Positions 3,320 to 52,528 of a DNA stretch of 53,536 nucleotides are shown here, piece after piece. The stretch covers positions 1-53,536 of the forward strand of contig JAJYJK010000013.1 in NCBI GenBank assembly GCA_021789555.1, read 5' to 3'. Each line of letters starts with the position of its first letter. Within the stretch, counting starts at the first letter, position 1. Source of the stretch: Nitrospirota bacterium (GTDB taxonomy: Bacteria > Nitrospirota > Thermodesulfovibrionia > Thermodesulfovibrionales > JdFR-88). Below the pieces are notes generated by a model. It was not told the origin of the DNA. It made no database searches and saw only the letters and a list, made by a program, of their open reading frames with translations. A program made the translations under genes and the position numbers.

Positions 3320-3332
3320 AACCCCCTCACTC

Positions 3333-12571: not shown

Positions 12572-12575
12572 CTCC

Positions 12576-28805: not shown

Positions 28806-28834
28806 CTTTACATAAACAAGGGCTTCCGTTAAGA
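28806..28834 (+). promoter_or_regulatory. Sigma70-type promoter of nadE with very short leader
   Basis: TTTACA at 28806-28811 and TAAGAT at 28829-28834 are exactly 17 nt apart. Transcription should start near 28841, leaving about five bases before ATG 28846. No Shine-Dalgarno fits, so the message is effectively leaderless. Confidence 0.55.
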
Positions 28835-28845
28835 TTAAATGCATC

Positions 28846-30576
28846 ATGAAGACTCTTAGGGTGGCCCTTGCCCAGATGAACCCCACGGTGGGTGACTTAT
28901 CGGGCAATGCCGAAAAGATCATCCACTGCATGAGCGGGGCCGCGGCCCGCGGGGCCGCCATCGTTGTCTTTCCGGAGCTTGCCCTGACCGGCTATCCGCC
29001 GGAGGACCTGCTTTTAAAACCCGGCTTCATAGAGGACAATATCGCCGCACTGCAGACGGTGAGCCGCCATGCGCGGGGCATCGTGGCGGTCGTGGGCTTC
29101 GTGGACAGGGGCCAGGACATATACAACGCGGCCGCGGTCATCGGGGACGGCAAGATAATAGACGTCTATCACAAGATGTTCCTGCCCAACTACGGGGTCT
29201 TCGACGAGCTTCGCTATTTTCAGGCCGGCACCCGGTGCCCCGTTTATGAGATGGGGGATGTGAGCTTCGGGGTCACGATATGCGAGGACATCTGGTATCC
29301 GACGGGGCCGGCAAGGACGCAGGCGCTGGGCGGAGCCGAGTTCATCATAAACATAAACGGCTCGCCCTATACCATGGGGAAAAACGCCTTCCGGGAAAAG
29401 ATGCTCGCAACCAGGGCCTCCGACTGCGCCGCCATCGTCTTGTACCTGAACATGGCGAGCGGCCAGGACGAGCTCGTCTTTGACGGCGGCAGCATGGTCT
29501 TCGACGAGAGGGGAAACCTGGTGGCGAGGGCAAAACTCTTCGAAGAGCAGCTTTTGTTCGTCGACCTCGACCTGGAGTCCGTTTTCATGTGGAGGCTCCA
29601 CGACCCCAGGCGGAGGCAGGAGAAGATCATGGTCTCTGGTCAGCAGGTGGCAAGAATCCCCCTGCCCCTGCCGGAGGTCGTGCCGCACAAGGTAGCCCCC
29701 GCCCCCCTGGCGCCCCCCCTGGAGATGGAGGAGGAGGTTTACAGGGCCCTAAAACTGGGCCTCGCGGACTATGTGAGGAAAAACGGTTTTGGCGGTGTCA
29801 TCATAGGGCTCAGCGGCGGGATAGATTCAGCCCTTGTCGCGACCATCGCCGTAGACTGCCTGGGCAAGGAGCGTGTGCACGCCCTCTTCATGCCCTCGCG
29901 CTATACCTCGCGGGAATCCCGCGAGGATGTCCGCGCCCTTGCGGACAACCTGGGGATAAAAGTGGAGGAGATCAATATAGAGCCGGTCTTCAAAGACTAT
30001 CTGGCCGCGCTCTCCCGGGCCTTCAAGGACGCCGGGCCCGATGTGACCGAGGAGAACCTGCAGGCCAGGATCAGGGGGAACCTGCTCATGGCGTTATCGA
30101 ATAAATTCGGCTGGCTCGTCGTCACGACCGGCAACAAATCCGAGATGAGCGTGGGCTACGCCACCCTCTACGGCGACATGGCGGGCGGGTTCGCCCTCAT
30201 AAAGGACGTCCCCAAGACACTCGTTTATTCGCTTGCAAACTGGAGGAACCGGGGGAAGGGCGGCCCCGTCATACCAGGGCGCATAATCAGCAGGGAACCC
30301 ACGGCGGAGCTGAGGACGGGCCAGAAGGACACGGACTCCCTCCCTCCCTATCCGGTCCTGGACCCCGTGCTGAAGGCCTACGTCGAAAGCGATATGAGCT
30401 TCGAGGAGATTTTGAACTTGAACCTCTGCGATCCCGAAACGGCAAAGAGGGTCGTAACGATGGTGGACAGAAGCGAATACAAGAGGCGGCAGGCGCCGCC
30501 GGGCATAAAGATCACCCCCCGCGCCTTTGGCCGCGACCGGAGGTTCCCGATAACAAACCGGTACAGGAACTTCTGA
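28846..30576 (+). CDS. nadE: Glutamine-dependent NAD+ synthetase
   Basis: 576 residues. The N-terminal nitrilase-type glutaminase domain (1-270) has the Glu in VVFPELALTGYPPEDLL, the Lys in DVYHKMFLPNYGVFDE and the nucleophile in VTICEDIWYP. The synthetase domain (about 295-576) has the ATP loop GLSGGIDSALVATIA, then TTGNKSEMSVGYATLYGDMA and a KDVPKTLVY helix. It amidates nicotinate adenine dinucleotide to NAD+ with ammonia from glutamine. A 15-bp direct repeat (CCGGTACAGGAACTT at 30558 and 30583) spans the stop codon. Confidence 0.95.
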   Translation: MKTLRVALAQMNPTVGDLSGNAEKIIHCMSGAAARGAAIVVFPELALTGYPPEDLLLKPGFIEDNIAALQTVSRHARGIVAVVGFVDRGQDIYNAAAVIGDGKIIDVYHKMFLPNYGVFDELRYFQAGTRCPVYEMGDVSFGVTICEDIWYPTGPARTQALGGAEFIININGSPYTMGKNAFREKMLATRASDCAAIVLYLNMASGQDELVFDGGSMVFDERGNLVARAKLFEEQLLFVDLDLESVFMWRLHDPRRRQEKIMVSGQQVARIPLPLPEVVPHKVAPAPLAPPLEMEEEVYRALKLGLADYVRKNGFGGVIIGLSGGIDSALVATIAVDCLGKERVHALFMPSRYTSRESREDVRALADNLGIKVEEINIEPVFKDYLAALSRAFKDAGPDVTEENLQARIRGNLLMALSNKFGWLVVTTGNKSEMSVGYATLYGDMAGGFALIKDVPKTLVYSLANWRNRGKGGPVIPGRIISREPTAELRTGQKDTDSLPPYPVLDPVLKAYVESDMSFEEILNLNLCDPETAKRVVTMVDRSEYKRRQAPPGIKITPRAFGRDRRFPITNRYRNF

Positions 30577-30625
30577 AAAGGGCCGGTACAGGAACTTTTA
30601 GCATTTCATAAAATGCCTTTAGTGA

Positions 30626-30735
30626 AACCCTCTCGTTGAGGGAGGGGGGTCCCCGAAAAGCCAAAGGGGGACTGGTGTATATGCTCAGTAATTAGGTAAC
30701 TCTTTTCGGGGCAAAGGCAGGGTTGGGAGAGGGGA
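30626..30735. repeat. CCCTCTCC palindrome interrupted by a 70-bp hairpin-bearing insert
   Basis: The left part GAAACCCTCTCGTTGAGGGA and the right part GGTTGGGAGAGGGG look like halves of one element. Between them CCCCGAAAAG (30651-30660) and CTTTTCGGGG (30702-30711) are perfect inverted arms around a 41-nt loop, suggesting a small inserted element. Confidence 0.5.
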
Positions 30736-30758
30736 AATCTTTTCCCGGGGGTTTCGTT

Positions 30759-31016
30759 ATGAAAAGGTCACTTTTCTTTTTATTTTTTCTGTTAATTCTC
30801 GCAGGCGCCGCCTCGGGCCTCCAGACGGAGTTCCGGAAGGACCGGGCCGTAAGCGGCGTCATCCCTGAAAAACCCGTGAGGATGGAGCTGAAAAGGGACG
30901 CCCGGGGACGGTACTCCTGGAGCATCCAGGGGACAAATGTCTCTCGGATAATCCGCGCGGACATAAGATTGCGGTCTTATGTGGACCGGCTGGAGAAAAG
31001 AGAAAAGGCCAAATGA
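30759..31016 (+). CDS. Small exported protein of unknown function
   Basis: 85 residues from ATG 30759, chosen so that the protein starts with a signal peptide (MKRSLFFLFFLLILAGAASG, cleavage near residue 20); the frame upstream to 30723 has no such logic. The mature ~65 residues are highly charged, with GRYSWSIQGTNV in the middle and a C-terminal Arg/Lys/Glu helix. I recognise no family. Its stop overlaps the rsmI start (ATGA), so the two are translated together, yet no functional link is evident. Confidence 0.65.
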   Translation: MKRSLFFLFFLLILAGAASGLQTEFRKDRAVSGVIPEKPVRMELKRDARGRYSWSIQGTNVSRIIRADIRLRSYVDRLEKREKAK

Positions 31017-31840
31017 AGGGCATCCTTTACGTGGTGGCGACCCCCATCGGCAACCTTGAGGACATAACGGAGCGCGCCCTGAAAACCCTCAGGACGGTGG
31101 ACCTGATCGCGGCCGAGGACACCCGCCATACCCTGAAACTGCTGACCCATTACGGCATAAGGAAAAAACTCGTCAGCTACTGGTCCGCGCGTGAGAAGCT
31201 AAAGGCCGGGGAGATTACGGCCCGGCTGGGCGAGGGGCTTTCGGTGGCGCTCGTCTCGGACGCGGGGACGCCGGGCATCTCGGACCCGGGGGGAGAGCTG
31301 ATAAGGCGGGCCATAGAGGAAGGAATTGAGGTCGCCGCCGTCCCCGGGCCAAGCGCCTTCACGGCAGCGCTCTCCATATCGGGGCTCGATACCAGGGAGT
31401 TCACCTTTATCGGGTTTCTGCCGGCAAAAAAAGCCGAAAGGACAAAAAAACTAAAGGCGCTTGCCCTCGAGGAGCGCACGCTCGTTTTTTACGAGGCGCC
31501 CCACAGGCTGCTGGAGACCCTGGCCGATATGAAAACGGCCTTCACCGGCCGCAGGCGGGCCGTCGTCGTCAAGGAGATAACCAAGATACACGAGGAGGCG
31601 GTCAGGGGCGATCTTGAAGGCGTGCTTGATTCGATGGAAGCAAAAACAGTCGCCGGGGAGTACGTGATAGCCGTCGCTGGCAGGGTGAAAGAGGTGACGG
31701 AGCCGTCCATCGAGGAGGCCCTCGCGGAGATGGGGGCGCTGATGAAAAAAGGCCTTGGCAGGAAAGAGGCCGCAAAGAGCGTCGCCAACAGCTACGGGAT
31801 TTCGGTAAATGAGATCTATCAGAGGAGCCTGAAAGGATGA
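31013..31840 (+). CDS. rsmI: 16S rRNA (cytidine1402-2'-O)-methyltransferase
   Basis: 275 residues, normal length. The tetrapyrrole-methylase fold is recognised by LYVVATPIGNLEDITERALK at the start, DLIAAEDTRHTLKLL, SDAGTPGISDPGGEL near 80, PGPSAFTAALSISGL and GFLPAKKAER. RsmI uses SAM to methylate the ribose of C1402 in the ribosomal P site. It overlaps the small exported protein by 4 nt and precedes the DUF362 remnant by 13 nt. Confidence 0.95.
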   Translation: MKGILYVVATPIGNLEDITERALKTLRTVDLIAAEDTRHTLKLLTHYGIRKKLVSYWSAREKLKAGEITARLGEGLSVALVSDAGTPGISDPGGELIRRAIEEGIEVAAVPGPSAFTAALSISGLDTREFTFIGFLPAKKAERTKKLKALALEERTLVFYEAPHRLLETLADMKTAFTGRRRAVVVKEITKIHEEAVRGDLEGVLDSMEAKTVAGEYVIAVAGRVKEVTEPSIEEALAEMGALMKKGLGRKEAAKSVANSYGISVNEIYQRSLKG

Positions 31841-31853
31841 GGCGTACCGAAAG

Positions 31854-32694
31854 GTGATGAAATCGGCGGAGAAAGTCTATTTCGCGTCCGCAAGGGTGCT
31901 TAAATGGAGGCATGAGGAGAGCCTGCCCGGCAGGCTCGAGCGGCTACTGAAAAAGATGGATTTTCAAAAAAGGCTCGAACCCGGCGAATGGGTGGCGGTG
32001 AAAACCCATTTCGGCTCTCCCGGGGCCCACAGGGTAATAGGCCCGGCCTTCCTTTCCAGGGTGGTTGCCGCCCTGAAGGCGGCAGGCGCAAAACCCTTTG
32101 TGACGGACACGGTGAGGATTAACGGGCTCGATTATCTTGAGGTCGCAAACCAAAACGGGATAAACCATCTCTCGGTGGGCGCGCCAGTCGTCCTTGCCGA
32201 CGGGCTATACGGAAGGGACAACATAATCGTGCCCGCCGGGGAGATACTGGGCGAGGTCGCCGTATCCACCTTGATCCACGATGCCCCGGCCATGGTGGTG
32301 GTGAGCCACATAAAGGGCCATATAAACGCGGGCTACGCCGGGGCGATAAAAAACCTCGCCATGGGCGGCGTGAGCGCCTCCCACCGCGTCCGCGGCTGGA
32401 AGTGCGGCCGGGGGGCGATGCATTCGCTGGGCGAGGGGAAACTCTTCTGGGACCGTGGTCCAGGACAAGGGCATCCTGGCCTCCGACGACCTTGTGGCCA
32501 TAGAGAAGGCCAGCATCGATATGCTGCTGGCCTCCGCCCCCCTGCCGGAGTCTGCGGCGGCTTCAAGCGTGGCTGAAGGCCCAAAACATCATGATATCCT
32601 CTTTGAGCTACATAAAAGAGAGTATCGCATCCAGATAGAACACGCCCGAAAACTCGGCCTCGGCTCACCGGATTACGATCTGATCACCATATAG
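31854..32694 (+). pseudogene. DUF362 protein gene with internal deletion and frame change
   Basis: The first frame (31854 to about 32450) reads a DUF362 N-terminal half: VAVKTHFGSPGAHRVIGPAF, KPFVTDTVRINGLDYLEVA, SHIKGHINAGYAGAIKNLAM and GRGAMHSLGEGKLFWDR. It then runs out of register and stops at 32576. A second frame from about 32452 to 32694 gives the family C-terminus QDKGILASDDLVAIEKAS. In complete relatives a ferredoxin-type 4Fe-4S segment and further sequence (roughly 90-100 residues) lie between these points, so the loss spans about 270-300 bp. A 17-bp direct repeat (CTGATCACCATATAGCG) covers the stop codon. It may be a decayed gene or an assembly error. Confidence 0.7.
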
Positions 32695-33355: not shown

Positions 33356-33689
33356 AGGGTTTTAGGTTTCAGGGATTTTTTATTATTTAAAGAGTTCTTA
33401 TTATTAAAGACGGGGCAGGTTTGGGGAAAGAGGGCAAGGCAGGGGCGCTGGAGGCCGTTGTTTTGCAGAGGCTGCCGTTTTACAGACCGGCATGGGTGCA
33501 GGCCGGCCCAGGGAGGCGGGGGCCCTTTCAGGGGGTCGCCCGGGGTATTCGGGTTCTTCGGTTTTGCATTTGCCAATTGAGGTGTGAAAACGTACAGGGG
33601 TGATTTGCGCCTTTGCGGGACCTCAGGATAAAAACATCCATAACTAGAATGAAATTCCATGCGGGTCTTTTCCGGGGAAAAGGGGGATT

Positions 33690-36014
33690 ATGAAGACATC
33701 GTCTTCACAGGGTCACGGGGATAGCCGTTCTCATGAGGGCAGCAGGCCGCTTGGGTTCAAGTTGGCTCCGAATGCCTTAAAGGTGCTGGAGAGGCGCTAT
33801 CTGAAGAAGAACGAGGAGGGGAGGGTCGTAGAGACCCCGGAGGAGCTTTTTCGAAGGGTTGCCAAGACGATAGCCGCCGCTGACAGGCAGTATGGCCGGC
33901 CGGAGGAAGACATAAGGGCGCTGGAGGAGGAATTTTACGGCATTATGACCGGGCTTTCCTTCCTGCCAAACAGTCCCACGCTCATGAATGCCGGCAGAAG
34001 ACTGGGACAACTGTCGGCCTGTTTCGTGTTGCCCGTGGGCGACGCCATGGAATCCATCTTCGATGCCGTCAAGCACGCGGCGATAATCCATAAATCGGGG
34101 GGCGGCACTGGGTTTTCCTTTTCGAGGCTCCGTCCCAAGGGAGACGTGGTGGGCTCGACGAAGGGGGTCTCCTCCGGCCCGGTCTCCTTCATGACCGTCT
34201 TCGACACGGCGACCGAGGCCGTGAAGCAGGGCGGCACCAGGCGGGGCGCCAACATGGGCATGCTCTCCGTCCATCACCCGGACATCCTCTCCTTCATGGC
34301 CTGCAAGGACGACAACTCGAAGCTCAATAATTTCAATATCTCGATAGCGCTGACGGACGCCTTCATGAAGGCCGTCCAGGAGGATTCACAATACGAGCTT
34401 GTGAACCCGCGCACGGGGAAGGTCGTGCAGTCGCTGCGGGCCAGGGAGGTCTTCGACCGCATTGTCGAGCATGCGTGGGGCAACGGCGAGCCGGGTGTTG
34501 TTTTTATCGACCGGATAAACGCGTCGAACCCCACGCCCGCCATCGGCGCAATAGAAAGCACCAACCCCTGCGGCGAGCAGCCGCTTCTGCCCTATGAGTC
34601 CTGCAATCTGGGCTCGATAAACCTCTCGCTCATGGTGACAGACGGCCAGGTGGACTGGGACAGGCTCGCCCGCGTGGTCCGTCTTGCCGTCCATTTCCTG
34701 GACAACGTGATAGACGCAAACAGATATCCCCTGCCCGAGATAGAGCAGATGACCAGGGCAAACAGGAAGATAGGCCTCGGGGTAATGGGTTGGGCCGACA
34801 TGCTCATACGCTTGCAGCTTTCTTACAACTCGCCCCGGGCGTTCGAGCTTGCCGGGGAGGTCATGGGCTTCATAAGGCGCCAGGCGATGGAGGAATCCAA
34901 TGCCCTCGCCGCGGAGCGCGGCGTCTTTCCCAACTACACGGGCAGCGCCCGGGAAGGTTTCACCGTGAGAAACGCCACCGTGACGACTATCGCCCCCACG
35001 GGCACGCTCTCCATCATCGCGGGCTCATCCTCCGGGATAGAGCCGATCTTTGCCGTCTGCTATGTGAGAAACGTAATGGAGGGCACGAAGCTCATAGAGG
35101 TAAACCCTTACTTCGAGGAGATGGCCAGAGAGCGCGGGTTCTGGTCCAGGGACCTCATGGAGCGCATAGCGGAGGCGGGCGGCATTCGCGGGTTCGAAGA
35201 GATACCCGAAGACATAAAGCGGCTCTTCGTCACCGCGCATGATATCACCCCCGAGGAGCACATCCGCATGCAGGCCGCCTTCCAGAGGCACGTGGACAAC
35301 GCCGTCTCGAAGACGGTGAACTTCTCGAAGGACGCCTCTCGAAAGGACGTGGAGGATGTCTATCTGCTTGCCTACAGCCTGGGCTGTAAGGGTGTGACAG
35401 TCTACAGGGACGGCTCCAGGGAGGGCCAGGTGCTCTCCACTGGGAAAAACGAGCGCGCATCCGCCGCAACGACAGAAGCCGGGAAGGGGCAGCAGTCCGA
35501 GCCCGCGCAGATAAAGATAACGCCCAGGAAGAGGCCCGACAGCCTCAAGGGGAAGACCATCAGGATGAATACGGGCTGCGGGCGCATCTACGTGACAATA
35601 AACGAGGACGACGAAGGCCACTTCTTCGAGCTGTTTACCTCGATGGGCAAGGCGGGCGGGTGCGCGTCCAGCCAATCCGAGGCTCTTGGCAGATTGATTT
35701 CCCTTGCCCTGCGCTCCAATATCGAGCCCCAACAGATCTCCAAACAATTAAAGGGAATTACATGCCATCAGCAAGTGCTCGGCTGTAAGGGGGAGAAAAT
35801 CCTTTCATGCGCCGATTCAATCGCAAAGGCTTTGGATCTCTTCCATTCGGATGGACATGGGAACGGAAACGGGAACGGAAAGAAAATCATCGATAAGAAA
35901 TATGAGTTTGAAACCCTGCTCATCGGCGCATGCCCCGAATGCGGAAGCTCCGTGGAGCACGAGGGCGGCTGCTCGATCTGCCGTAACTGCGGGTTCACCA
36001 AGTGTTCCGGCTGA
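33690..36014 (+). CDS. nrdJ: Vitamin B12-dependent ribonucleotide reductase (class II)
   Basis: 774 residues. The N-terminal region (ALKVLERRYLKKNEEGRVVE) and the barrel carry NSPTLMNAGRRLGQLSACFV, SGGGTGFSFSRLRP, and the radical-site motif NPCGEQPLLPYESCNLGSIN, followed by TIAPTGTLSIIAGSSSGIEP. After a linker comes a TSCPD-like domain (NTGCGRIYVTINEDDEGHFF) and a short HGNGNGNGK repeat. The C-terminus has CPECGSSVEHEGGCSICRNC, the zinc/redox cysteines typical of this subclass. It reduces ribonucleotides with adenosylcobalamin, needing no oxygen and no activase. Its own promoter shows an NrdR box. Start ATG 33690 has AAGGGGG 4-5 nt upstream. Confidence 0.96.
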   Translation: MKTSSSQGHGDSRSHEGSRPLGFKLAPNALKVLERRYLKKNEEGRVVETPEELFRRVAKTIAAADRQYGRPEEDIRALEEEFYGIMTGLSFLPNSPTLMNAGRRLGQLSACFVLPVGDAMESIFDAVKHAAIIHKSGGGTGFSFSRLRPKGDVVGSTKGVSSGPVSFMTVFDTATEAVKQGGTRRGANMGMLSVHHPDILSFMACKDDNSKLNNFNISIALTDAFMKAVQEDSQYELVNPRTGKVVQSLRAREVFDRIVEHAWGNGEPGVVFIDRINASNPTPAIGAIESTNPCGEQPLLPYESCNLGSINLSLMVTDGQVDWDRLARVVRLAVHFLDNVIDANRYPLPEIEQMTRANRKIGLGVMGWADMLIRLQLSYNSPRAFELAGEVMGFIRRQAMEESNALAAERGVFPNYTGSAREGFTVRNATVTTIAPTGTLSIIAGSSSGIEPIFAVCYVRNVMEGTKLIEVNPYFEEMARERGFWSRDLMERIAEAGGIRGFEEIPEDIKRLFVTAHDITPEEHIRMQAAFQRHVDNAVSKTVNFSKDASRKDVEDVYLLAYSLGCKGVTVYRDGSREGQVLSTGKNERASAATTEAGKGQQSEPAQIKITPRKRPDSLKGKTIRMNTGCGRIYVTINEDDEGHFFELFTSMGKAGGCASSQSEALGRLISLALRSNIEPQQISKQLKGITCHQQVLGCKGEKILSCADSIAKALDLFHSDGHGNGNGNGKKIIDKKYEFETLLIGACPECGSSVEHEGGCSICRNCGFTKCSG

Positions 36015-36108: not shown

Positions 36109-36555
36109 ATGAAATCACCATGGCGGGCATGCGTATCGTATCTTGCAGGCAGGCTTATCTTCGGCAGGGACGCCGACACTATCTATGAATGCATCGAAGG
36201 CTCGCACCAGGACACGATGGAGATGCTGGGGAAAAACCGGATAAACCTTCTCGAAGCAAGACCGCCCGTCGGAAGGCCCCTTAGTTTCGACGAGATCGGG
36301 GAGAGGTCGGCCCTTTACAACTCGCTTTTCGGGCAGATTTATATAAACATAAGCGGCAACACCTTCAAGGGGTACGCCGGGGGCAACTCCACTTTCTTTG
36401 TCGGCAAGGCAAGCGGCAACCTGGTGGTCGTTTACGACTACAGGGAGAAATCGTTTTTCAAGTACAGGTTCTGCAGCCGGCAGAAGGAAAACTGGCATTG
36501 CGGGGCGGTCTGCCACGATTGCGTGGCTGGGCACCTTCCTCCTTCCGTGATTTAA
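36109..36555 (+). CDS. Unrecognised cysteine-containing protein downstream of nrdJ
   Basis: 148 residues; no family recognised. It starts with a short amphipathic segment, has a middle with KNRINLLEARPPVGRPL and a beta-rich half (GQIYINISGNTFKGYAGGN, NLVVVYDYREKSFFKYRF). The end carries four cysteines spaced C-x8-C-x3-C-x2-C (FCSRQKENWHC, CHDC), suggestive of a zinc or redox site. It follows nrdJ by about 95 bp on the same strand without a clear terminator between, so cotranscription is possible. The Shine-Dalgarno is poor. A link to ribonucleotide reduction is conjecture. Confidence 0.6.
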   Translation: MKSPWRACVSYLAGRLIFGRDADTIYECIEGSHQDTMEMLGKNRINLLEARPPVGRPLSFDEIGERSALYNSLFGQIYINISGNTFKGYAGGNSTFFVGKASGNLVVVYDYREKSFFKYRFCSRQKENWHCGAVCHDCVAGHLPPSVI

Positions 36556-36562
36556 GGATCAT

Positions 36563-36663
36563 CCTCCCCTAATCCCCTCCTTTCCGGGAGGGGATTTAGT
36601 AAAAGACAAGTCTATGGGTTTTTAGTTAAATCCTCTCCCTTGAGGGAGAGGATTAGGAGAGGG
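36563..36663. repeat. Two CCCTCC-type palindromes
   Basis: At 36563-36598 AATCCCCTCC faces GGAGGGGATT. At 36629-36663 AAATCCTCTCCCTT faces AGGGAGAGGATT and is followed by AGGAGAGGG. They fill the gap between the cysteine protein and the first lipoprotein. Confidence 0.73.
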
Positions 36664-36687
36664 TGCTTTCTGTGCTAGCATTTAATC

Positions 36688-37152
36688 ATGAGAAAGGTGC
36701 TCGCCGCATCCGCGCTTCTTCTTGTCTTTGCTTGCGCGTCCGGGCAGGTTTTCACGAAACTGTCCTCCTACGACGCGCCCCTTCCGGGGCGCTGCACGCT
36801 CCTTTTTTACAGCGGCGTCTATCAGGCCCGGTACGGGGCGCTCGTTATTATGTTTCCGGAGAAAAGCGCCTACAGCTTTTTGCCATATTATCCGTCTTAC
36901 GGGTGGAAGACGGTGCCCGGCGTGCCGGGCGGCTCCGCCATGAAAGAGGCGGGCGATATGCTCGGCGTCAAGGACATCCGCAGGCTGAGGGTCCAGGCGA
37001 TCATGCACGGGGGCAAGGCGATAGGCTACCAGGCAAGCCCGCCCACTGAGCCCCCCGATAATTCCTCGTACTATTTTGAGATCAGCTATTTCCTGAGGGG
37101 CAATACCGTCCGCGTCCAGGTGCTCCCCTTTCCCTTTTACCATGGCTACTGA
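36688..37152 (+). CDS. Lipoprotein of unknown function, paralogue A
   Basis: 154 residues. The signal peptide (MRKVLAASALLLVFACASG) ends in the lipobox VFAC, lipidated Cys at about 16. The mature domain holds LLFYSGVYQARYGALVIMF, SYSFLPYY-like aromatic strands, and HGGKAIGYQASPP near 113. The same order of elements (lipobox, a strand with a Gly-Arg or Gly-Val-Tyr turn, a FLPYYP or ILPYAP motif, a G-x-x-IGY motif) is found in the lipoprotein at 38921, so the two are paralogues. Function is unknown. Aromatic, beta-rich content suggests a periplasm-facing beta fold. Confidence 0.72.
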   Translation: MRKVLAASALLLVFACASGQVFTKLSSYDAPLPGRCTLLFYSGVYQARYGALVIMFPEKSAYSFLPYYPSYGWKTVPGVPGGSAMKEAGDMLGVKDIRRLRVQAIMHGGKAIGYQASPPTEPPDNSSYYFEISYFLRGNTVRVQVLPFPFYHGY

Positions 37153-37238
37153 TTTATTATGGTTACTGATTTTGGGGGAGACAAAATACGCCCGTTGTCC
37201 ATCCGGGAAAAACTGAAAGATAAAGGAGGACTGTCCGG

Positions 37239-37379
37239 ATGCATGCGCATGCGCTGGTAGCGCTCATAATAGGAATCCTGATACTCATCATGCCGAGGCT
37301 GCTGAATTATCTTGTCGCCGTTTACCTCATCATGACGGGGATCCTTGGGCTCGTTCATTTCCACTATTTCCATTACTGA
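37239..37379 (+). CDS. Small membrane protein, DUF3096 family
   Basis: 46 residues from ATG 37239, preceded by AAGGAGG at 37223-37229. It is almost all hydrophobic, with LIIGILILIMPRLLNYLVA and VYLIMTGILGL forming two membrane helices around the conserved PRLLNY. The C-terminus is HFHYFHY, rich in His and aromatic residues. DUF3096 proteins are short, widespread and uncharacterised. This gene is easy to miss because of its length. Confidence 0.72.
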   Translation: MHAHALVALIIGILILIMPRLLNYLVAVYLIMTGILGLVHFHYFHY

Positions 37380-37457
37380 GGGAAATTTCACCTGTCCCTG
37401 CGCCTTGGTATTGGGGACTTGACATGCGGCCCTGTGCTATCCTATTAGCTCGAACTC

Positions 37458-38081
37458 ATGGTCGAACTCTCCAGCATGAACTGGAACTGGGTTCATGGTC
37501 TCTTGAACCACTTCCCGGTTATGGGGCTTTTTGTCCTCCTGGTGCTTGGGGGACTGGGCCTGCCGTTTCCGGAGGACGCCATACTTATCCTCTGCGGCAT
37601 CTTTATCGCCACGGGCATCGCCAGGCCGGCCATTGCGCTCAGCGCCTCATACGCGGGACTGCTGTCAATGGATTTCTTCCTCTACTACGTAGGCAGGAAA
37701 TACGGCGCGATGCTCGTGGGGCATAAGAGGTTCCGCAGGATAATCACGCAGGAGAGGCTCCTGAAGCTGGAGGAGAAATTCTCCAGGTGGGGGGTGCTTT
37801 TCCTCATTACGGGCAGGCAGCTTGTGGGCCTTCGGGCCCAGATATTCCTGGTCTCTGGCGTATTGAGGATGCCTTTTTTAAAATTCATCGCCGTCGATAT
37901 GGCAGGCGCCCTGATTACGATGTCCATCATGGTGGGCATAGGCTATGCGGGAGGCAGCAGCCTGGAGGTCCTCTCGAAGGACATAAACAAGATCGGGCAT
38001 CTCGCGGTGGCGCTGGGGGTTGTCTTCATCTTCTTTTATCTCTTTTATAAATACATCAAACGCGGCCGCACGCCGGACTGA
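37458..38081 (+). CDS. DedA family membrane protein (second copy)
   Basis: 207 residues; ATG 37458 or 37476 could be the start, neither with a strong site. The motifs LGGLGLPFPEDAILILCGIF (entry loop with Pro-Glu-Asp) and FLITGRQLVGLRAQIFLVSG (Arg-containing second loop) mark the VTT/DedA fold with five to six hydrophobic segments. It differs from the dedA at 11933 (ETGLVVTPFLPGD), so they are distant paralogues, likely of different subfamilies. A phospholipid- or undecaprenyl-phosphate-flipping role is inferred from the family. It lies in a cluster of small envelope genes. Confidence 0.85.
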   Translation: MVELSSMNWNWVHGLLNHFPVMGLFVLLVLGGLGLPFPEDAILILCGIFIATGIARPAIALSASYAGLLSMDFFLYYVGRKYGAMLVGHKRFRRIITQERLLKLEEKFSRWGVLFLITGRQLVGLRAQIFLVSGVLRMPFLKFIAVDMAGALITMSIMVGIGYAGGSSLEVLSKDINKIGHLAVALGVVFIFFYLFYKYIKRGRTPD

Positions 38082-38124
38082 ATTTTAATAACCCACCCAT
38101 ACCCCAAATGCCCCACTGGAAATT

Positions 38125-38182
38125 CCTTGAGGGCCTGATAGAATTTAACTAAAGAGATTCACTTTCAATCAGGCCGTCAAGG
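38125..38182 (+). promoter_or_regulatory. 15-bp inverted repeat reaching the ribosome binding site of the zinc-ribbon gene
   Basis: CCTTGAGGGCCTGAT at 38125-38139 and ATCAGGCCGTCAAGG at 38168-38182 pair at 14 of 15 positions around a 28-nt loop. The right arm runs into the GGGGG used as Shine-Dalgarno (38181-38185). TTGAGG at 38128 with TAAAGA at 38151 could be a weak promoter inside, so the repeat may be an operator or an RNA switch. Confidence 0.55.
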
Positions 38183-38191
38183 GGGTGCGAT

Positions 38192-38356
38192 ATGCCGAAA
38201 AAAGGCGAGAAACCCGGCAAGGGGACGTATATCTGCCAGGAATGCGGGGCCGAACAGACGCTGAGAAAAGAGACCGAGACCTTGCAGGGGTGCGTCTGTG
38301 AGGGGACCGAATTCAGGGAAAAAGGAGGCAGGAAACCTGTTGGGGCGAAAAAATAG
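38192..38356 (+). CDS. Small zinc-ribbon protein
   Basis: 54 residues from ATG 38192, with AGGGGG six bases upstream. Lys-rich ends flank a YICQECGAEQTL knuckle and a second CVC pair near residue 34, giving four cysteines for one zinc (C-x2-C and C-x-C). Short proteins of this type are common in anaerobes and usually unassigned. The next gene's start lies within its last codons, so they are coupled. Confidence 0.65.
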   Translation: MPKKGEKPGKGTYICQECGAEQTLRKETETLQGCVCEGTEFREKGGRKPVGAKK

Positions 38357-38924
38357 TTTTACCGTTATCTTTTTCCTGGTCTCGCTGATTTTCCTTGCCG
38401 TTGCCGCCCTGAATGGCGCGGCGGCAAGACAAACACGGGAAATGGAGGTGGTCCAAATGGCCCGGGTGGTTGCTGCCGGGACGATGATGTCCATAAAGAG
38501 CGAGTCTTTCGGGATGAACGAGTACATCCCGGTGGAATTTAGCTGCAAGGGAAGGGACAAGAGTCCGCCGCTGCTGGTGGAAAACGTGCCCCGGGGCGCA
38601 AAGTCGCTTGCCCTCATCATGGACGACCCGGATGCCCCCGCGGGCACGTGGGTCCACTGGGTGTTGTGGGACATCCCGCCCGGGACAAGGAAGATAGAGG
38701 CGGGCTCCGCCCCGGCGGGGGCCGTACCGGGCGTAAACAGTTGGGGGAAACCGGGTTATGGAGGCCCCTGCCCGCCCTCGGGCGTCCACCGTTATTTCTT
38801 CAAGCTCTATGCCCTGGACACAAGGCTCTCCCTTGGGCGCGGGGCGGGGAAACGCGAGCTTGAGGCCGCGATGAGGGGGCACATCATCGCACGGGCGGAG
38901 CTGCTAGGGCTTTTCAAAAAATGA
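38340..38924 (+). CDS. YbhB/YbcL-type phosphatidylethanolamine-binding protein homologue, exported
   Basis: About 194 residues from TTG 38340, with GGAGG 11 nt upstream; GTG 38298 is a longer alternative without a site. An N-terminal hydrophobic helix (FTVIFFLVSLIFLAVAALNG) targets it to the periplasm. The PEBP core has SCKGRDKSPPLLVENVP, the ligand-pocket motif MDDPDAPAGTWVHWVLWDIP, GKPGYGGPCPPSGVHRYFF and KLYALD. Bacterial members bind anionic or phosphate-bearing small ligands, but their role is unclear. It overlaps the next lipoprotein by 4 nt. Confidence 0.87.
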   Translation: MGRKNSFTVIFFLVSLIFLAVAALNGAAARQTREMEVVQMARVVAAGTMMSIKSESFGMNEYIPVEFSCKGRDKSPPLLVENVPRGAKSLALIMDDPDAPAGTWVHWVLWDIPPGTRKIEAGSAPAGAVPGVNSWGKPGYGGPCPPSGVHRYFFKLYALDTRLSLGRGAGKRELEAAMRGHIIARAELLGLFKK

Positions 38925-39433
38925 AGACTTTTGCGCTTCTGGTCTCCATGTTTCTGCTCTTCGCCTGTGCCGCCGGGCCGGTGCTGACGGTGCAGTCGGC
39001 CCGGGGGATTGAAGAGCAGCGCTATGACGTCATACTTTTTGGCGGCAGGTACAGCGAAGACCTCAGGAGCATGGCCATATTTGTCATCAGGGGCGGCCCC
39101 TACAGGATTTTACCCTATGCGCCGAAGTTTGATTACAAGATAGTAAAAGACCTTTCCGCGCCGCAGGCCCTCGCCACGGCCACCCGTTTTCTGGCGGGTA
39201 TAAACCCCAATTACATAGGCACCACGAAAAACCTGATACTGGGTCCGGACGGAAGGCCCATAGGCTATGAAATCCGGCCTCTCTACCAGCCCTTTGTCTA
39301 CGGTTTCAGCGACGTCCTTGAGACCTCTTACCGGGTCTGGGGGAAGGGCGTCGTGCGCGCCTGGATAGACGTGGCCCCGGCTGTAAACAGGCTTGAAGGA
39401 GGCGGCAACCGGTTATTCGAAAGGGAAAGATAA
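38921..39433 (+). CDS. Lipoprotein of unknown function, paralogue B
   Basis: 170 residues. The signal peptide (MKTFALLVSMFLLFACAAG) ends in lipobox LFAC. The mature part has VILFGGRYSEDLRSMAIFV, YRILPYAPKFDYKIVKD, and LGPDGRPIGYEIRPLYQP near 110-127, paralleling paralogue A at 36688 although overall identity looks low. It has a longer C-terminus with DVLETSYRVWGKGVVRAWI. Coupled to the PEBP gene by an ATGA overlap. Unknown function. Confidence 0.72.
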   Translation: MKTFALLVSMFLLFACAAGPVLTVQSARGIEEQRYDVILFGGRYSEDLRSMAIFVIRGGPYRILPYAPKFDYKIVKDLSAPQALATATRFLAGINPNYIGTTKNLILGPDGRPIGYEIRPLYQPFVYGFSDVLETSYRVWGKGVVRAWIDVAPAVNRLEGGGNRLFERER

Positions 39434-39472: not shown

Positions 39473-39507
39473 AACCCTCTCCTCAGGGAGAGGGATGGGA
39501 GAGGGTG
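39473..39507. repeat. CCCTCTCC palindrome between convergent lipoprotein and RND genes
   Basis: AAACCCTCTCC-TCA-GGGAGAGGG is followed by a second partial right arm (ATGGGAGAGGGTG). It lies ten bases from the RND stop codon. Confidence 0.74.
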
Positions 39508-39516
39508 CCTGAAATT

Positions 39517-47292: not shown

Positions 47293-48495
47293 CTAATCGA
47301 CCGCCAGGAAGGCGCATTTCAGATACTGCGTCTCCGGCATCGAAAGCAGCGCCGGATGGTCGCGCCCCTGGAAACGCTGCTCGATGATTTTCACATTCCT
47401 GCCCGCCGCGCGCGCCGCGGCGCGGAGCATATCGAGGAACTCCTGCCTCGACAGATGATAAGAGCAGGACGAGGTGGCCAGGACCCCGCCCGGTCTTAAA
47501 AGCCCCATGCACCGGGCGTTTAAAAGGGTGTAGGCCCTCACCGCCTCCCTGATCTTTTTCGCGCTTTTAACGAAGGCCGGGGGGTCCAATACTATGAAAT
47601 CATAGCGCCCCCCGCCGGATGAAACTTTAGATTCCTTTTCGAGAAAATCGAAGACGTCCGCCCGGACGAATTCCACCTGGCCGGCGAGGCCGTTTAGCTC
47701 GGCGTTTCTTTGGGCCCGGGCAAGCGCGCCCCCGGACTCATCGACCAGCGTCACCTTCCCGGCCCCCGCCCGGGCGAGATGCATCCCCCAGCCGCCGGCG
47801 TAGCAGAATAAATCCAGCCCGGCGCTCGTATGGTCCCCATGTTCGCGCAAGCACCCGCTTGCGATCTCTTTCAGTAAAAGCCTGTTTTCGCGCTGGTCGA
47901 GGAAGAAACCCGTCTTCTGCCCGTGAAGGGGGTCGATCTCGAACAAGACGCCGTCTTCCTCGATGACCGGCAAGGGCTCGATAACTCCCTTTGCCACCTC
48001 CTTGTAAAGTGAAAGACCTTCGAGGTCTCGCATACGGCTGTCGTTTTTGAGCACTATCGCCCTGGGAGCAAGCAGGGCGTCAACCGCCTCCAGTATCTCG
48101 CTTTTCATCGCTTCCATCCCCGCCGTGAGGAGTTGAATCACGATGACGTCGGCGTATTTATCTGCAATGAGGCCGGGCAGATAGTCGGCCTCGCTGTAGA
48201 TGAGTCTCAAGGCCGACTCATCTTTCAGAAAACGCTTCCGGTATCGCAGCGCGGCATCTATTCTTTTTTTGAAAAAGTTGACATCGACCGGCTCATTGAG
48301 CCTCGTCAGCACGCGCACGGAGATAAGGCTATTGGGGTTTATGTAGCCTATGCCGAGGAAGTTTTCCTTTGCGTCCCGGATCTCCACGAGCTGGCCGGGG
48401 GCAAACCCGCGGGGGCTATGGGCAAGCTCGTTTGAGAAGACCCACTGGTGTCCGGCCAGAAGCCGGCTCGTCTTTCGAAGTTTCACCTTTTCCAT
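47293..48495 (-). CDS. rlmI: 23S rRNA (cytosine1962-C5)-methyltransferase, RlmI type
   Basis: 400 residues. An N-terminal PUA domain (HQWVFSNELAHSPRGFAPGQ, IGYINPNSLISVRVLTR) is followed by a central domain and a SAM methyltransferase core with GLDLFCYAGGWGMHLARAG, FVRADVFDFLE, FIVLDPPAFVKS and the catalytic Cys in TSSCSYHLSRQEF. It methylates 23S rRNA at C5 of a cytosine. Its ATG shares a base with the VWA stop codon (TAATG), so it is coupled to the AAA+/VWA genes, with no obvious functional tie. Confidence 0.9.
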   Translation of the reverse strand: MEKVKLRKTSRLLAGHQWVFSNELAHSPRGFAPGQLVEIRDAKENFLGIGYINPNSLISVRVLTRLNEPVDVNFFKKRIDAALRYRKRFLKDESALRLIYSEADYLPGLIADKYADVIVIQLLTAGMEAMKSEILEAVDALLAPRAIVLKNDSRMRDLEGLSLYKEVAKGVIEPLPVIEEDGVLFEIDPLHGQKTGFFLDQRENRLLLKEIASGCLREHGDHTSAGLDLFCYAGGWGMHLARAGAGKVTLVDESGGALARAQRNAELNGLAGQVEFVRADVFDFLEKESKVSSGGGRYDFIVLDPPAFVKSAKKIREAVRAYTLLNARCMGLLRPGGVLATSSCSYHLSRQEFLDMLRAAARAAGRNVKIIEQRFQGRDHPALLSMPETQYLKCAFLAVD

Positions 48496-49484
48496 TAAGC
48501 TGTCAGCCTTCTGTAGATTTCCGGTATCTTGTCCGGGAGTTTTTTGACGTCATCGATGGCGATGTAGTTTGCGGCCCCGTACATATGGGGCAGATAAGAA
48601 CGTGCTTCCCGGTCTATGGTTATGCAAAACGGGTGAAACCCCTTCTCCTTCGCCTCTATCAGGGCCCTTCTTGTGTCCTCGACGCCGTAGTCTCCCTTGT
48701 AGGCGTCGTAGTCCTCGGGCTTGCCGTCGCTCAGCACTATGAGCAGTCTGGTCCTTGCCTCGATGCGCCTGAGTATCGAGGCCGAATGCCTCAGGGCCGG
48801 CCCCATGCGGGTATAGTCTTTCGGCTCTATGCCGGATATCCGTTTTTTAACATCCGGGCCGTAGTTTTCATCGAACCCCTTGATCCTGTAGAAATCGCAC
48901 CTGCCCCTCGTCATCCCCGAAAACCCGTAGATGGCGTAATTGTCGCCCAGGGCGGAGAGGGCCTCGCACATCAGGACCAGGGCCTCCTTTTCGGCCTGGT
49001 TCACCCAGCCCTTGGTCGAGCCGCTCATATCGAGGAGGAAGAGCGCGGCTATATCGCGCTCCTTGCGCTCGTACCGGATGAAAAGGTCCTCTTCGGAGGG
49101 GGGCATGCCGGCCCTCGTATCGGCAAGCGCCTCCACCATGGCGTCTATGTCTATATCGTCGCCGTCTTTTTGCCGCCGGAGGAGTTTCGGCTCCTGCCTG
49201 AACAGCTCGAACCTGTTTCTGAGGGCCGTGACGTACCCGCCGTAGCGTTTCAGGGTCTGCTCCGCGAAGGGTTCATGCCCCTCATCTATATCATGCTCAT
49301 AAAGCGTGCACCAGTTCCTCCGGTAACCGCCTCTGCGGTAGTCCCATTCGTCGTATTTTACACCTCTTTGGCCGGCCGCCTGCTCATTGCCGTCTTCCTC
49401 CGCGAGGTCGCTCAGCCTGTAGACGGCCCTGCCGCCCGCGGCGGCCCCGTCAACAAGCACCCCGCCCGGGAAACGGGTTTTCAC
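48495..49484 (-). CDS. VWA-domain protein, C-terminal part of a split NorD/CbbO-like protein
   Basis: 329 residues from GTG 49484. KYDEWDYRRGGYRRNWCTLYE is the NorD/CbbO hallmark linker. The VWA domain has a full MIDAS: LFLLDMSGSTKGW (D-x-S-x-S), DYTRMGPALRHS (Thr) and VLSDGKPEDYD (Asp). Family members are one chain of about 600-780 residues; here the N-terminal half is in another frame (next entry) and the two overlap by 35 nt. Either a frameshift near 49450-49484 or coupled translation of two subunits would explain it. NorD/CbbO proteins act with a MoxR-type ATPase to insert cofactors or remodel a target enzyme; no target such as norBC or RuBisCO is near. Confidence 0.75.
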   Translation of the reverse strand: MKTRFPGGVLVDGAAAGGRAVYRLSDLAEEDGNEQAAGQRGVKYDEWDYRRGGYRRNWCTLYEHDIDEGHEPFAEQTLKRYGGYVTALRNRFELFRQEPKLLRRQKDGDDIDIDAMVEALADTRAGMPPSEEDLFIRYERKERDIAALFLLDMSGSTKGWVNQAEKEALVLMCEALSALGDNYAIYGFSGMTRGRCDFYRIKGFDENYGPDVKKRISGIEPKDYTRMGPALRHSASILRRIEARTRLLIVLSDGKPEDYDAYKGDYGVEDTRRALIEAKEKGFHPFCITIDREARSYLPHMYGAANYIAIDDVKKLPDKIPEIYRRLTA

Positions 49485-50604
49485 CTCTTTCCCCGGCGGA
49501 TAATTCTTTCAGCAGCTCCGGGTCAAGTTCAATCAGTCTGCCCCTGATGAAAAGATAAGTCTTGCCCGGCTCGGCAGACCGAAACGGGATGGCCCTTTTG
49601 CGCCCCGCGGGGGCCGGGGCCCCGGGCCCGAAATCGGGCATATCGAGAATCTCTTCGACCGTCTCCTCGAACCTCCTTCTCCTGGCAAGCGCTTCTTTCT
49701 GCTGCTCATGCCGGACCTCATCGGGTCTTATGACGCCGATATAGGAGGTGTCGATGGGCATATACAAGCCCGGACAAGAACCCTCGACAAGGCGGTAAAG
49801 CTCGAAGAGCGCAAGCGCCCCTTCGGCCGCCGATTCATGGCGGCGGGCCTTCTGCCACGCCTTCATCGCCCCGCCGGCTATTTCGACATTATAAGGCGCG
49901 CCGTCCTGCCCCATCGCCAGATAAAGCTCGAAGAGCCCCTCGACAAAGACCGTTTTTTTTGTCTGCCCGGAGGGAATTAACTTTAACTGACGCCGGGACA
50001 GAAACTCCGTCCTCAGGGGGCGGGTCTTTTCGAAGAGGCCGGGAACCTGCCTCTCAAGAAAGGCGTCAAGCCTTATGGACTCCAGGATGTTATAGAGGTC
50101 CAGGGCCAGTTGCCTGTCGGCAAAGAGGGGGAAAAGCAGTGGCGGGGCGAGTGTGCCCCCTGCCGCCTGCGCCCACTTGTGCACGGCCGCCAGACGGTAC
50201 AGAAGGAGGTTTTTCTCCGCGGCATCGAAAGCGTTTATCTCCCGGGGCAGAAATATTGTGGGGCCGTTTGTATAACAATTTCCGGGCCCGGACAGCCCCG
50301 CAGAGGCCGATACACGGAAATCGATGCCGGAGAGGCCCTTCAGATAGACCTCCAGCCTCGCGGAAACCTCTTCCAGTCTGACAACGGCGGAATCTTTGAA
50401 TGCGGCAAGTTCGGCTGCGGCGCTCCTTTCCAGAAAACTTGCCACCGCATCGAGCCCCGAGGAATCCAGGAGATCGAATGCCCTCCCCAGCCAGTCCTCC
50501 AATTCACCCGGGGACAACACAGAGACAGCGTTTTTTATATGGCGCAGGGTCTTTGAGACCAGGTCCGAGCTTGTGTTTGAAAGCTGCCAGCAGAGGGCGA
50601 GCAC
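49450..50604 (-). CDS. N-terminal part of the split NorD/CbbO-like protein (start unresolved)
   Basis: 384 residues from GTG 50604. The sequence is helical (SKTLRHIKNAVSVLSPGELE, ADRQLALDLYNILESIRLDA) as in NorD/CbbO N-terminal regions. It ends at TGA 49450 with ERGENPFPGRGAC, just where the family sequence continues in the next frame. The frame is open and coding-like further upstream (RERLRHELHKNL, LRLHFFEEAEIAEILRQIDA) to about 50766, yet contains no ATG, GTG or TTG before 50604; upstream lie a C7 run and 20-bp tandem repeats. An ATG at 50857 in another frame would join if one base changed. So the true start may be atypical, phase-variable, or lost to an indel. Its AAA+ partner lies upstream on the same strand. 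Confidence 0.7.
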   Translation of the reverse strand: MLALCWQLSNTSSDLVSKTLRHIKNAVSVLSPGELEDWLGRAFDLLDSSGLDAVASFLERSAAAELAAFKDSAVVRLEEVSARLEVYLKGLSGIDFRVSASAGLSGPGNCYTNGPTIFLPREINAFDAAEKNLLLYRLAAVHKWAQAAGGTLAPPLLFPLFADRQLALDLYNILESIRLDAFLERQVPGLFEKTRPLRTEFLSRRQLKLIPSGQTKKTVFVEGLFELYLAMGQDGAPYNVEIAGGAMKAWQKARRHESAAEGALALFELYRLVEGSCPGLYMPIDTSYIGVIRPDEVRHEQQKEALARRRRFEETVEEILDMPDFGPGAPAPAGRKRAIPFRSAEPGKTYLFIRGRLIELDPELLKELSAGERGENPFPGRGAC

Positions 50605-50780
50605 CCTTCCGCCAGACCCTCCGAAGGCGTCTATCTGCCGGAGTATCTCCGCAATTTCCGCCTCCTCGAAGAAATGGAGGCGGAGGTTTTTATGAAGCTC
50701 ATGCCTCAGGCGCTCACGGTTGTTTTTTTCTTCCCGGTTTTTTATCTGACTTTCCTTGTTATTTATCTCTGACTTTCCTT

Positions 50781-50860
50781 TCGGGGGGGCCAGCCCCCTT
50801 TCGATAGGGCCAGCCCCCTTTCGATAGGGCCAGCCCCCTTTCGAGGGGATCGGTCCCCAT
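50781..50860. repeat. 20-bp tandem repeat (three copies plus a degenerate fourth)
   Basis: Plus-strand units start at 50781, 50801 and 50821 and read TCGATAGGGCCAGCCCCCTT in the two exact copies; the first unit has TCGGGGGGG and the fourth, at 50841, has diverged. The unit length is not a multiple of three, so copy-number change shifts the frame of anything reading through it into the VWA gene. Confidence 0.8.
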
Positions 50861-50883
50861 TCGCTTTTTTAAATGGATAACGA

Positions 50884-51702
50884 TCAGATTATCGAGCCCA
50901 GGATTTCCGACAAGGTCTCTAGCATCTCGCGGTCGTCCGTCAGAGAGAGGCTGATGGCAGACTCGCAGGCGGCCGACGCCTCTATGCCGGAGTTGACGAG
51001 CTTTGCGGCGTGGACCAGCAGCCTGGTGCTTGCGCCCTCCGTGAGCCCGCAGTCCTTGAGGTTCCGGGTTTTCCCGGCAAAAAGGACGAGCCTTCTGGCC
51101 AGTTCCTGGGGGGCGCCGGCCTCGTGCCTGATAATTTCGATCTCCAGCTCTTCGGGCGGATACTTGAACTCCAGCGACATGAACCTCTGCCTGGTGCTTT
51201 GTTTGATGTCCTTCGTCACGCTCTGGTAGCCGGGGTTATAGGATATCGCAAGCAGGAATTCGGGCGGCGCCTGGAGCGTCTCTCCGCGCTTCTCCATGGG
51301 CAGCATGCGCCTGTCGTCCGCCAGGGGATGGATGACCACGGTAGTGTCTTTCCTTGCCTCGACGATCTCGTCCAGGTAGCAGAAGCCTCCCGCCTTGACC
51401 GCCCTTGCCAGCGGGCCGTCAACCCAGAGGGTCTCGCCCCCCTTTACCAGGTAGCGGCCGACCAGGTCGGAGGCCGTCAGGTCGTCATGGCAGGAGACCG
51501 TCACAAGCGGCCTGCCCAGCTTCCATGCCATGTGGAGCATGAAGCGGGTCTTTCCGCAGCCGGTCGGGCCCTTCAGAAGGACGGGTATCCGGTTTTTGTA
51601 CGCGGCCTCGAAGAGCTCTATCTCCCTTCCCGTCGGCAGGTAATAGGGCTCCTCGGTTATGGTGAAAAACTCCTGGACTCTCGCGTGCCTGGAAACGGAC
51701 AT
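50884..51702 (-). CDS. MoxR-type AAA+ ATPase, CbbQ/NirQ/NorQ group
   Basis: 272 residues from ATG 51702; the longer frame to 51723 would begin upstream of the -10 box. Walker A is LLKGPTGCGKTRFM near 40, Walker B is GGFCYLDEIVEA near 105, with sensor 1 in LLAISYNPGYQSV and the Arg finger region in STRQRFMSLEF. The signature TASDLVGRYLVKGGETLWVD and DGPLARAVKAG is characteristic of NorQ/CbbQ. With the VWA partner it forms a chaperone-like remodelling machine. It starts a minus-strand series: ATPase, VWA halves, rlmI, regulator, kinase. No Shine-Dalgarno; see the promoter entry. Confidence 0.9.
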   Translation of the reverse strand: MSVSRHARVQEFFTITEEPYYLPTGREIELFEAAYKNRIPVLLKGPTGCGKTRFMLHMAWKLGRPLVTVSCHDDLTASDLVGRYLVKGGETLWVDGPLARAVKAGGFCYLDEIVEARKDTTVVIHPLADDRRMLPMEKRGETLQAPPEFLLAISYNPGYQSVTKDIKQSTRQRFMSLEFKYPPEELEIEIIRHEAGAPQELARRLVLFAGKTRNLKDCGLTEGASTRLLVHAAKLVNSGIEASAACESAISLSLTDDREMLETLSEILGSII

Positions 51703-51709
51703 GTATTTA

Positions 51710-51715
51710 ATTATA
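51710..51715 (-). promoter_or_regulatory. -10 box of the AAA+ gene, apparent leaderless start
   Basis: TATAAT on the minus strand ends seven bases before ATG 51702. A transcript initiating at the usual distance begins at the start codon itself, and no ribosome binding site is present. Confidence 0.5.
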
Positions 51716-51759
51716 ACAAACAATATGCATACAAAACCCTTTATTCGGCGCTATAAAGT

Positions 51760-51841
51760 CGGCATTGAGTGCCGCCCGGCGCCTCAAGCGTTTGAGGAAG
51801 GAGGCGGGATGGCATGCGAGCGTGCCATCCCGCCTCCTTCC
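51760..51841. repeat. Three consecutive hairpins between divergent genes, the last with a 19-bp perfect stem
   Basis: Hairpin 1: CGGCA-TTGAG-TGCCG (51760-51774). Hairpin 2: CCTCAA-GCGT-TTGAGG (51782-51797). Hairpin 3: GGAAGGAGGCGGGATGGCA (51796-51814), 8-nt loop TGCGAGCG, and its exact complement (51823-51841). No T tract follows on either strand, and both flanking promoters point away, so terminators are unlikely. Confidence 0.85.
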
Positions 51842-51871
51842 CATTAATACGCCGTTCGTTATTTTTTAAGT

Positions 51872-51877
51872 TATAAT
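51872..51877 (+). promoter_or_regulatory. -10 box of hisH, apparent leaderless start
   Basis: TATAAT is followed by eight bases and then ATG 51886. No Shine-Dalgarno is present. The arrangement mirrors the divergent AAA+ gene. Confidence 0.5.
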
Positions 51878-51885
51878 TAATCGTC

Positions 51886-52503: not shown

Positions 52504-52528
52504 CGCGCTCCCTCTGCGCGCCGGGAAA

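Follow-up and report, generated by a model that had tools for sequence, protein, structure and literature searches.

Contig JAJYJK010000013.1 of a Nitrospirota bacterium (here called the window, all 53,536 nucleotides of it, from a genome of 2.85 Mb) carries a run of six genes that opens with a lipoprotein gene, LP1, and closes with another, LP2. Between them lie genes for a small DUF3096 protein, a DedA membrane protein, a zinc-ribbon protein and an exported PEBP protein. A sequence-only reading had put forward, as a hypothesis, that these genes form a lipid-handling or envelope-stress module. It appears, with a probability of about 0.8, that the stretch is an ordinary gene order inherited within one bacterial family and not a dedicated module. 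What was observed is the paralogy of the two lipoproteins, the spread of the family to which they belong (LP), a gene order common to related genomes, and promoter-like boxes that recur in those genomes. The sequence-only reading is partly supported overall. An open reading frame (ORF) reading of the window placed all six genes on the + strand where they had been described.

The gene order was followed through the 12 genomes of the window's bacterial family (f1) by tblastn with the window's proteins (E <= 1e-3), a search that a short, diverged copy of the DUF3096 or zinc-ribbon gene could escape. A clustering of neighbouring genes, blurred by antisense ORFs, was used for picking neighbours and for judging adjacency in G005 and G006. 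LP1, DedA, PEBP and LP2 were found together in six of the 12 genomes (G000, G003, G004, G008, G010 and G011); in G004 a third LP gene sits between LP1 and DedA. An LP gene lies upstream of DedA in 9/12. DUF3096 was matched in four relatives, which makes five of the eight LP1-DedA loci when the window is counted, and the zinc ribbon in five relatives, or six of the eight LP1-DedA genomes counted in the same way. G001, a genome that is 82% complete, has LP1 through PEBP and no LP2 match of its own; its PEBP and RND genes share a contig on which LP2 is missing between them. In G002, the nearest relative by LP1 identity, the run is in two pieces: LP1-DedA lies 1.2 kb from a contig end, and zinc ribbon-PEBP-LP2 is on another contig with ~9 kb beyond the zinc-ribbon gene; a misassembly is possible. 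G007 and G009 have an LP gene, PEBP and LP2, and G006 has an LP2-like gene with neither PEBP nor DedA beside it.

The flanks of the run serve as a control for background colinearity. In three genomes of the sister genus (G003, G010 and G011), the run sits inside a colinear block of ~17 kb that has unrelated genes on both sides. Colinearity before the run takes in three ORFs at 28816-32573 and the ribonucleotide reductase gene at 33648-36011; after the run it takes in window positions 47296-53407, with an RlmI-like methyltransferase, a NorQ-like ATPase and other genes. Sequence identities of the flanks lie in the range that the run itself shows. Because the flanks are colinear at similar identities, the six genes are linked no better than their neighbours in the window's genus and the sister genus. 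In the window and in G002, LP2 and the RlmI-like gene are kept apart by a block of RND efflux and sensor-kinase genes (39517 to ~47300); in genera g2, g3, g5 and g6 the two are adjacent.

Promoter-like boxes appear to divide the run. All eight LP1 orthologues have an extended -10 box, TGNTANNNT, exactly 6 nt before the ATG. Upstream of DedA, TGNTATCNT occurs within 160 nt in seven of eight genomes; G008 lacks it there and has a similar box farther up. The unit of zinc ribbon and PEBP is preceded by TGATAGAAT in 7/8 genomes, the remaining one (G004) having a different box, and G002 keeps TGATAGAAT even where the sequence farther upstream differs. In the window, the zinc-ribbon, PEBP and LP2 genes overlap when PEBP is read from its inferred TTG start. 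This start, at 38340, is more likely than the GTG at 38298 that would give the longest ORF, because a GGAGG precedes the TTG. Since boxes recur before LP1, before DedA and before the zinc-ribbon unit, the sequence suggests three or more transcription units: LP1; DedA; and zinc ribbon-PEBP-LP2. The predicted boxes thus speak against a single six-gene transcript. Visual inspection showed an inverted repeat at 38127-38182, in the spacer that separates DedA from the zinc-ribbon gene and near the ribosome-binding site of the latter; no obvious copy was seen in the relatives' spacers.

Outside f1, the search covered 40 LP loci of other families (L078-L117), in stretches of 4 to 16 kb. None of them held a PEBP or DedA relative by tblastn with the window's own proteins at E <= 1e-3, a search that for DedA used the window's protein alone and that a distant relative could escape. 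The test of co-occurrence suggested in the sequence-only reading thus gives a contiguous run in half of f1; LP, DedA and PEBP linked amid different flanks were encountered in none of the 40 outside loci. What adjoins an LP gene varies among these loci. Ribonucleotide reductase was seen in four families other than f1; further neighbours are biotin synthase, with its radical SAM and BATS domains, and gyrase subunits, the last named by eye. A PEBP domain was found in 18 of 61 relatives, 12 in f1 and six outside. The six outside genomes are drafts, and in none of them does PEBP share a contig with a listed LP match. All six also have an LP match, which was not counted as support because 31 of the 49 outside genomes have one.

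LP1 and LP2 are confirmed by sequence comparison as paralogues of one family, as had been proposed from their common motifs. Those motifs are present in both: FACASG, FLPYYP and GKAIGY in LP1, and FACAAG, ILPYAP and GRPIGY in LP2. BLASTP aligned the two at E 3e-9 in full length and at 6e-7 for the mature parts, and in searches of their own genome LP1 retrieves LP2 at E 8e-7 and LP2 retrieves LP1 at 1.5e-6. A single iterated profile covers both (E 1e-43 and 9e-55), figures that are not independent because both proteins are members of the profile. Could the motifs agree by chance between unrelated proteins? Such a view could point to the low identity of the mature parts, 25% where they align. 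Chance agreement is extremely improbable given the significant scores in both directions, the one alignable family of 68 ORFs and the same predicted order of strands and helix. In a tree of 66 of the 68 LP rows (L110 and L117 excluded; midpoint root, for drawing only), the f1 copies fall into two sets, one with LP1 and the other with LP2, separated by rows of other families. The approximately unbiased (AU) test does not reject a single f1 clade (p 0.145), so the tree does not date the duplication.

The LP family is widespread in the window's phylum, which the searches covered. A sample of 395 genomes from the phylum yielded LP matches in 117, of which, by row count, 93 belong to the window's order, 13 to the rest of the class and 11 to the rest of the phylum. 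A contig scan in which LP2 was the sole query led to one relative, L061. The 68 ORFs were gathered by iterating a profile over loci that had themselves been picked by LP matches. Their alignment shows an acidic turn, P-Y-A-P, GYE-x-RPLY and a late Tyr, and its 66-row version has one invariant and two nearly invariant columns. The lipobox Cys is present in both window copies, in 27/27 f1 copies and in 48/68 overall, counted as an aligned column with a tolerance of one column that may take in a stray Cys in L107; among the 20 rows without Cys, L084 starts too late in the alignment and L110 is short. An initial lipobox rule, by which 21 rows had no lipobox, proved too strict and was replaced by this count. 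Of the 48 lipobox Cys residues, 32 are followed by Ala and none by Asp. In E. coli, the residue after the lipobox Cys tells the destination of a lipoprotein, and Ala directs it to the outer membrane. Copies have multiplied in places: there are three in G004 (including L066), four in G005 (L067-L070) and five LP matches in G046, a genome of another family (L080, L104-L106).

LP proteins are predicted to be exported, to extend for ~140-155 residues past the signal, to consist of nine strands and one helix, and usually to carry a lipobox. AlphaFold2 models of LP2 and LP1 (mean predicted local distance difference test scores of 79.6 and 79.2) have nine strands and one helix in identical order; both were built from alignments of the same four sequences, two LP1 and two LP2, and are thus not independent. 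The likeness in predicted structure, the paralogy and the presence of the neighbourhood in relatives are all in line with the sequence-only reading; of the two outcomes named there as refuting it, a neighbourhood lacking in relatives and unlike predicted folds, neither was observed. In Foldseek searches with the models the best matches were at E 0.16 (LP2) and 0.24 (LP1), with none at <= 0.001, and none of the solved structures was a convincing match. CheC/CheX/FliM structures recurred weakly, LP2 against 1xkr with Z 5.1 and a root-mean-square deviation of 3.9 over 114 residues and LP1 against 1xko with Z 4.7 and 3.5 over 88 residues; Z below 8 may reflect a common arrangement only, and these rows were not used as evidence. 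No credible match to LP was found in Pfam or NCBIfam, where scans member by member gave only single-member matches at E 0.017 or weaker. The PDB gave no match at E <= 10 to a profile built from 66 LP members, and the best PHROGs match of LP1 and LP2 was at E 0.27. By these searches, LP is an undescribed family in the libraries covered (Pfam, NCBIfam, PHROGs and PDB). It resembles bacterial lipoproteins in its signal-like start and in the lipobox Cys of every f1 copy, and it differs from them in matching no described family in those libraries and in its 20 members without the Cys.

The box upstream of LP1 is so close to the ATG that LP1 is probably leaderless. Leaderless genes have been described with a TANNNT box ~12 bp before the start, in the part of PMC3160421 concerned. 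LP1 is like them in that its box ends 6 nt before the ATG in every orthologue, and unlike them in its TG extension and its Nitrospirota host. In a count of 771 ATGs from 636 non-LP genes in the vicinity of LP loci, which do not form a random sample, TGNTANNNT preceded an in-frame ATG by 5 nt in 8 cases and by 6 nt in 11, as against 0 to 4 cases at each of the other spacings; nine of these 19 cases come from two orthologous genes of one family and are thus not independent. These 19 boxes fit the TANNNT rule of the passages in PMC3160421, and leaderless transcription may be a regular feature of this order. The main text of PMC3160421 has no occurrence of Nitrospir- or Thermodesulfovibrio, and among open-licence papers no title was found on leaderless genes in Nitrospirae, Nitrospirota or Thermodesulfovibrio. 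Thermodesulfovibrionia is tabulated among anti-Shine-Dalgarno types in PMC10783764, in passages that do not mention leaderless genes.

Several observations weigh against the view that the run is merely inherited gene order, and against the boxes that divide it. G004, of a third genus, keeps the order 148-residue gene-LP1-DedA-zinc ribbon-PEBP-LP2 with an LP1 (42%) and an LP2 (38%) that are much diverged; its contig has 6756 bases, on which background colinearity is not judgeable. G005 belongs to a fourth genus and has an LP paralogue immediately upstream of DedA. PEBP and LP2 are adjacent in 9/12 f1 genomes of four genera. Both the promoters and the leaderless start of LP1 are predicted from sequence, and a promoter scan of the window alone was not above shuffles (2 found vs 2.1). 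With few relatives (8 genomes in 3 genera), conservation of the boxes may in part be plain shared descent. The conservation in G004, in G005 and of PEBP with LP2 leaves room for a functional link.

What would such a link be? In the proposed lipid-handling or envelope-stress module, DedA would move a lipid carrier or phospholipid, the periplasmic PEBP would bind a headgroup, and LP1 and LP2 would anchor the chain at the outer membrane. The contiguity of the run across three genera and the LP gene upstream of DedA in most of f1 would fit this model, as would the fact that UptA is the best NCBIfam model for DedA, far below its cut-off as it is. The module is very unlikely, given the background colinearity of the flanks, the promoter-like boxes before three units, and the pieces that are separated or missing (DUF3096 or zinc ribbon in some genomes, the split in G002, LP2 in G001). 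No linkage was found in the 40 outside loci, and G006 has no DedA match at E 1e-10 despite having LP2 and PEBP. The lipid case is weak for PEBP in particular: the relevance of its phospholipid-headgroup binding, on which the sequence-only reading drew, is doubted in passages of the review PMC8793217. Among open-licence papers, none was found that joins PEBP, DedA, a lipoprotein and an operon.

Within the run, only PEBP and LP2 look coupled. The PEBP stop and the LP2 start overlap as ATGA in seven of the nine adjacent cases (window, G002, G003, G004, G008, G010 and G011), with gaps of 56 and 64 nt in G007 and G009. A reading compatible with inherited gene order is that exported PEBP and LP2 form a functional pair, in which LP2 tethers PEBP or takes its ligand, and that the other genes are bystanders. 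Adjacency and overlap argue for it, and such a pair would be notable because YbhB-type genes rarely occur in conserved positional associations, according to the part of PMC8793217 that treats them. It is nevertheless rather unlikely: G001 has PEBP without LP2, the two genes are on different contigs in G005 and G006, LP2 in G006 starts in an ATGA that ends another upstream ORF, and 25 of the 43 genomes with an LP2 match (43 of 61) have no PEBP domain match. More doubtful still is a broader version, in which LP is an undescribed family of periplasmic domains in this phylum, paired in f1 with exported PEBP as a binding unit tethered to the outer membrane, and the kin of LP1 have diverged to serve DedA likewise.

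If the run is inherited gene order, transcription would begin at three or more places: at LP1 itself, without a leader; separately before DedA; and again before zinc ribbon-PEBP-LP2. LP1 and LP2, probably old paralogues, would be lipoproteins facing the periplasm, probably in the outer membrane because Ala follows the lipobox Cys, and would act as small binding or scaffold domains independent of DedA and DUF3096. In most f1 members, translational coupling would tie the synthesis of LP2 to that of the exported PEBP-fold protein, and the two may share a task where they are coupled.

The features of the run and its surroundings are collected below; PEBP is called exported, and the lipoproteins are credited with signals, from visual inspection and a lipobox pattern.

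Features in and around the six-gene run (window coordinates)
Feature	Position	Strand	Remarks
148-aa conserved protein, no Pfam family	36109..36555	+	between ribonucleotide reductase and LP1; tblastn matches beside LP1 in G001, G002, G003, G004, G010, G011
Palindromic intergenic repeat	36629..36666	.	upstream of LP1; 32-base stretch 81% like 39477-39508
Extended -10 box TGCTAGCAT	36673..36681	+	6 nt before LP1 ATG; predicted leaderless start
LP1, LP-family lipoprotein	36688..37152	+	lipobox Cys16, Ala next
DUF3096 small membrane protein, 46 aa	37239..37379	+	Pfam E 5e-17
Extended -10 box TGCTATCCT	37435..37443	+	upstream of DedA
DedA/VTT-domain membrane protein	37458..38081	+	Pfam VTT 8e-13
Promoter-like site: TGGAAA, 16 nt, TAGAAT with TG extension	38117..38144	+	upstream of zinc-ribbon/PEBP/LP2 unit
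Small zinc-ribbon protein, 54 aa	38192..38356	+	DUF1451 below cut-off
Exported PEBP (YbhB/YbcL type)	38340..38924	+	Pfam 1.4e-41, TIGR00481 2.8e-36; start inferred
LP2, LP-family lipoprotein	38921..39433	+	start overlaps PEBP stop (ATGA)
Intergenic repeat between LP2 and RND genes	39477..39508	.	similar to repeat upstream of LP1

Most of the gene names given in the sequence-only reading stand. DUF3096 scores 61.7 bits against a Pfam cut-off of 23.3; in PMC13343836 the domain is named for a gene that ppGpp down-regulates. The window's DedA belongs with the DedA/VTT family (PF09335) by its score of 49.4 against 33.9 bits. It differs from UptA, an undecaprenyl-phosphate transporter, in falling far short of the NCBIfam equivalog cut-off (36.1 vs 250 bits), and no substrate is therefore assignable. 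A second VTT/DedA-domain protein is encoded in the window at 11936-12628 on the minus strand (Pfam 2.8e-16). PEBP is above the cut-offs of both PF01161 (142.4 vs 24 bits) and TIGR00481 (124.4 vs 57.75 bits), as expected of the YbhB/YbcL type, from which it differs in a hydrophobic N-terminus, judged by eye, and in the overlap with a lipoprotein gene. The name that fared less well is that of the zinc-ribbon protein, which matches only the C-terminal end of the DUF1451 model (E 9e-5, 23.1 vs 26.1 bits). The bounds of the cluster were right in that LP1 and LP2 bracket the run, and they left out the conserved 148-residue gene just upstream. This protein has a weak relative (28%) beside ribonucleotide reductase in G034, a genome of another family.

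A G-rich intergenic repeat, GGGAGAGG-NNN-GGGAGAGGGTG, has five matches in the window (at 3322, 8951, 11842, 36644 and 39486), with 0 to 3 mismatches and on both strands; 0.06 would be expected. An Rfam scan of the window found nothing at the gathering score.

The candidate six-gene module comes off the list, and the stretch itself alters little. The useful remainder is an undescribed envelope family that is present in 117 of the 395 genomes, a PEBP-lipoprotein pair accessible to testing, and a hint that leaderless starts may be regular in this order.

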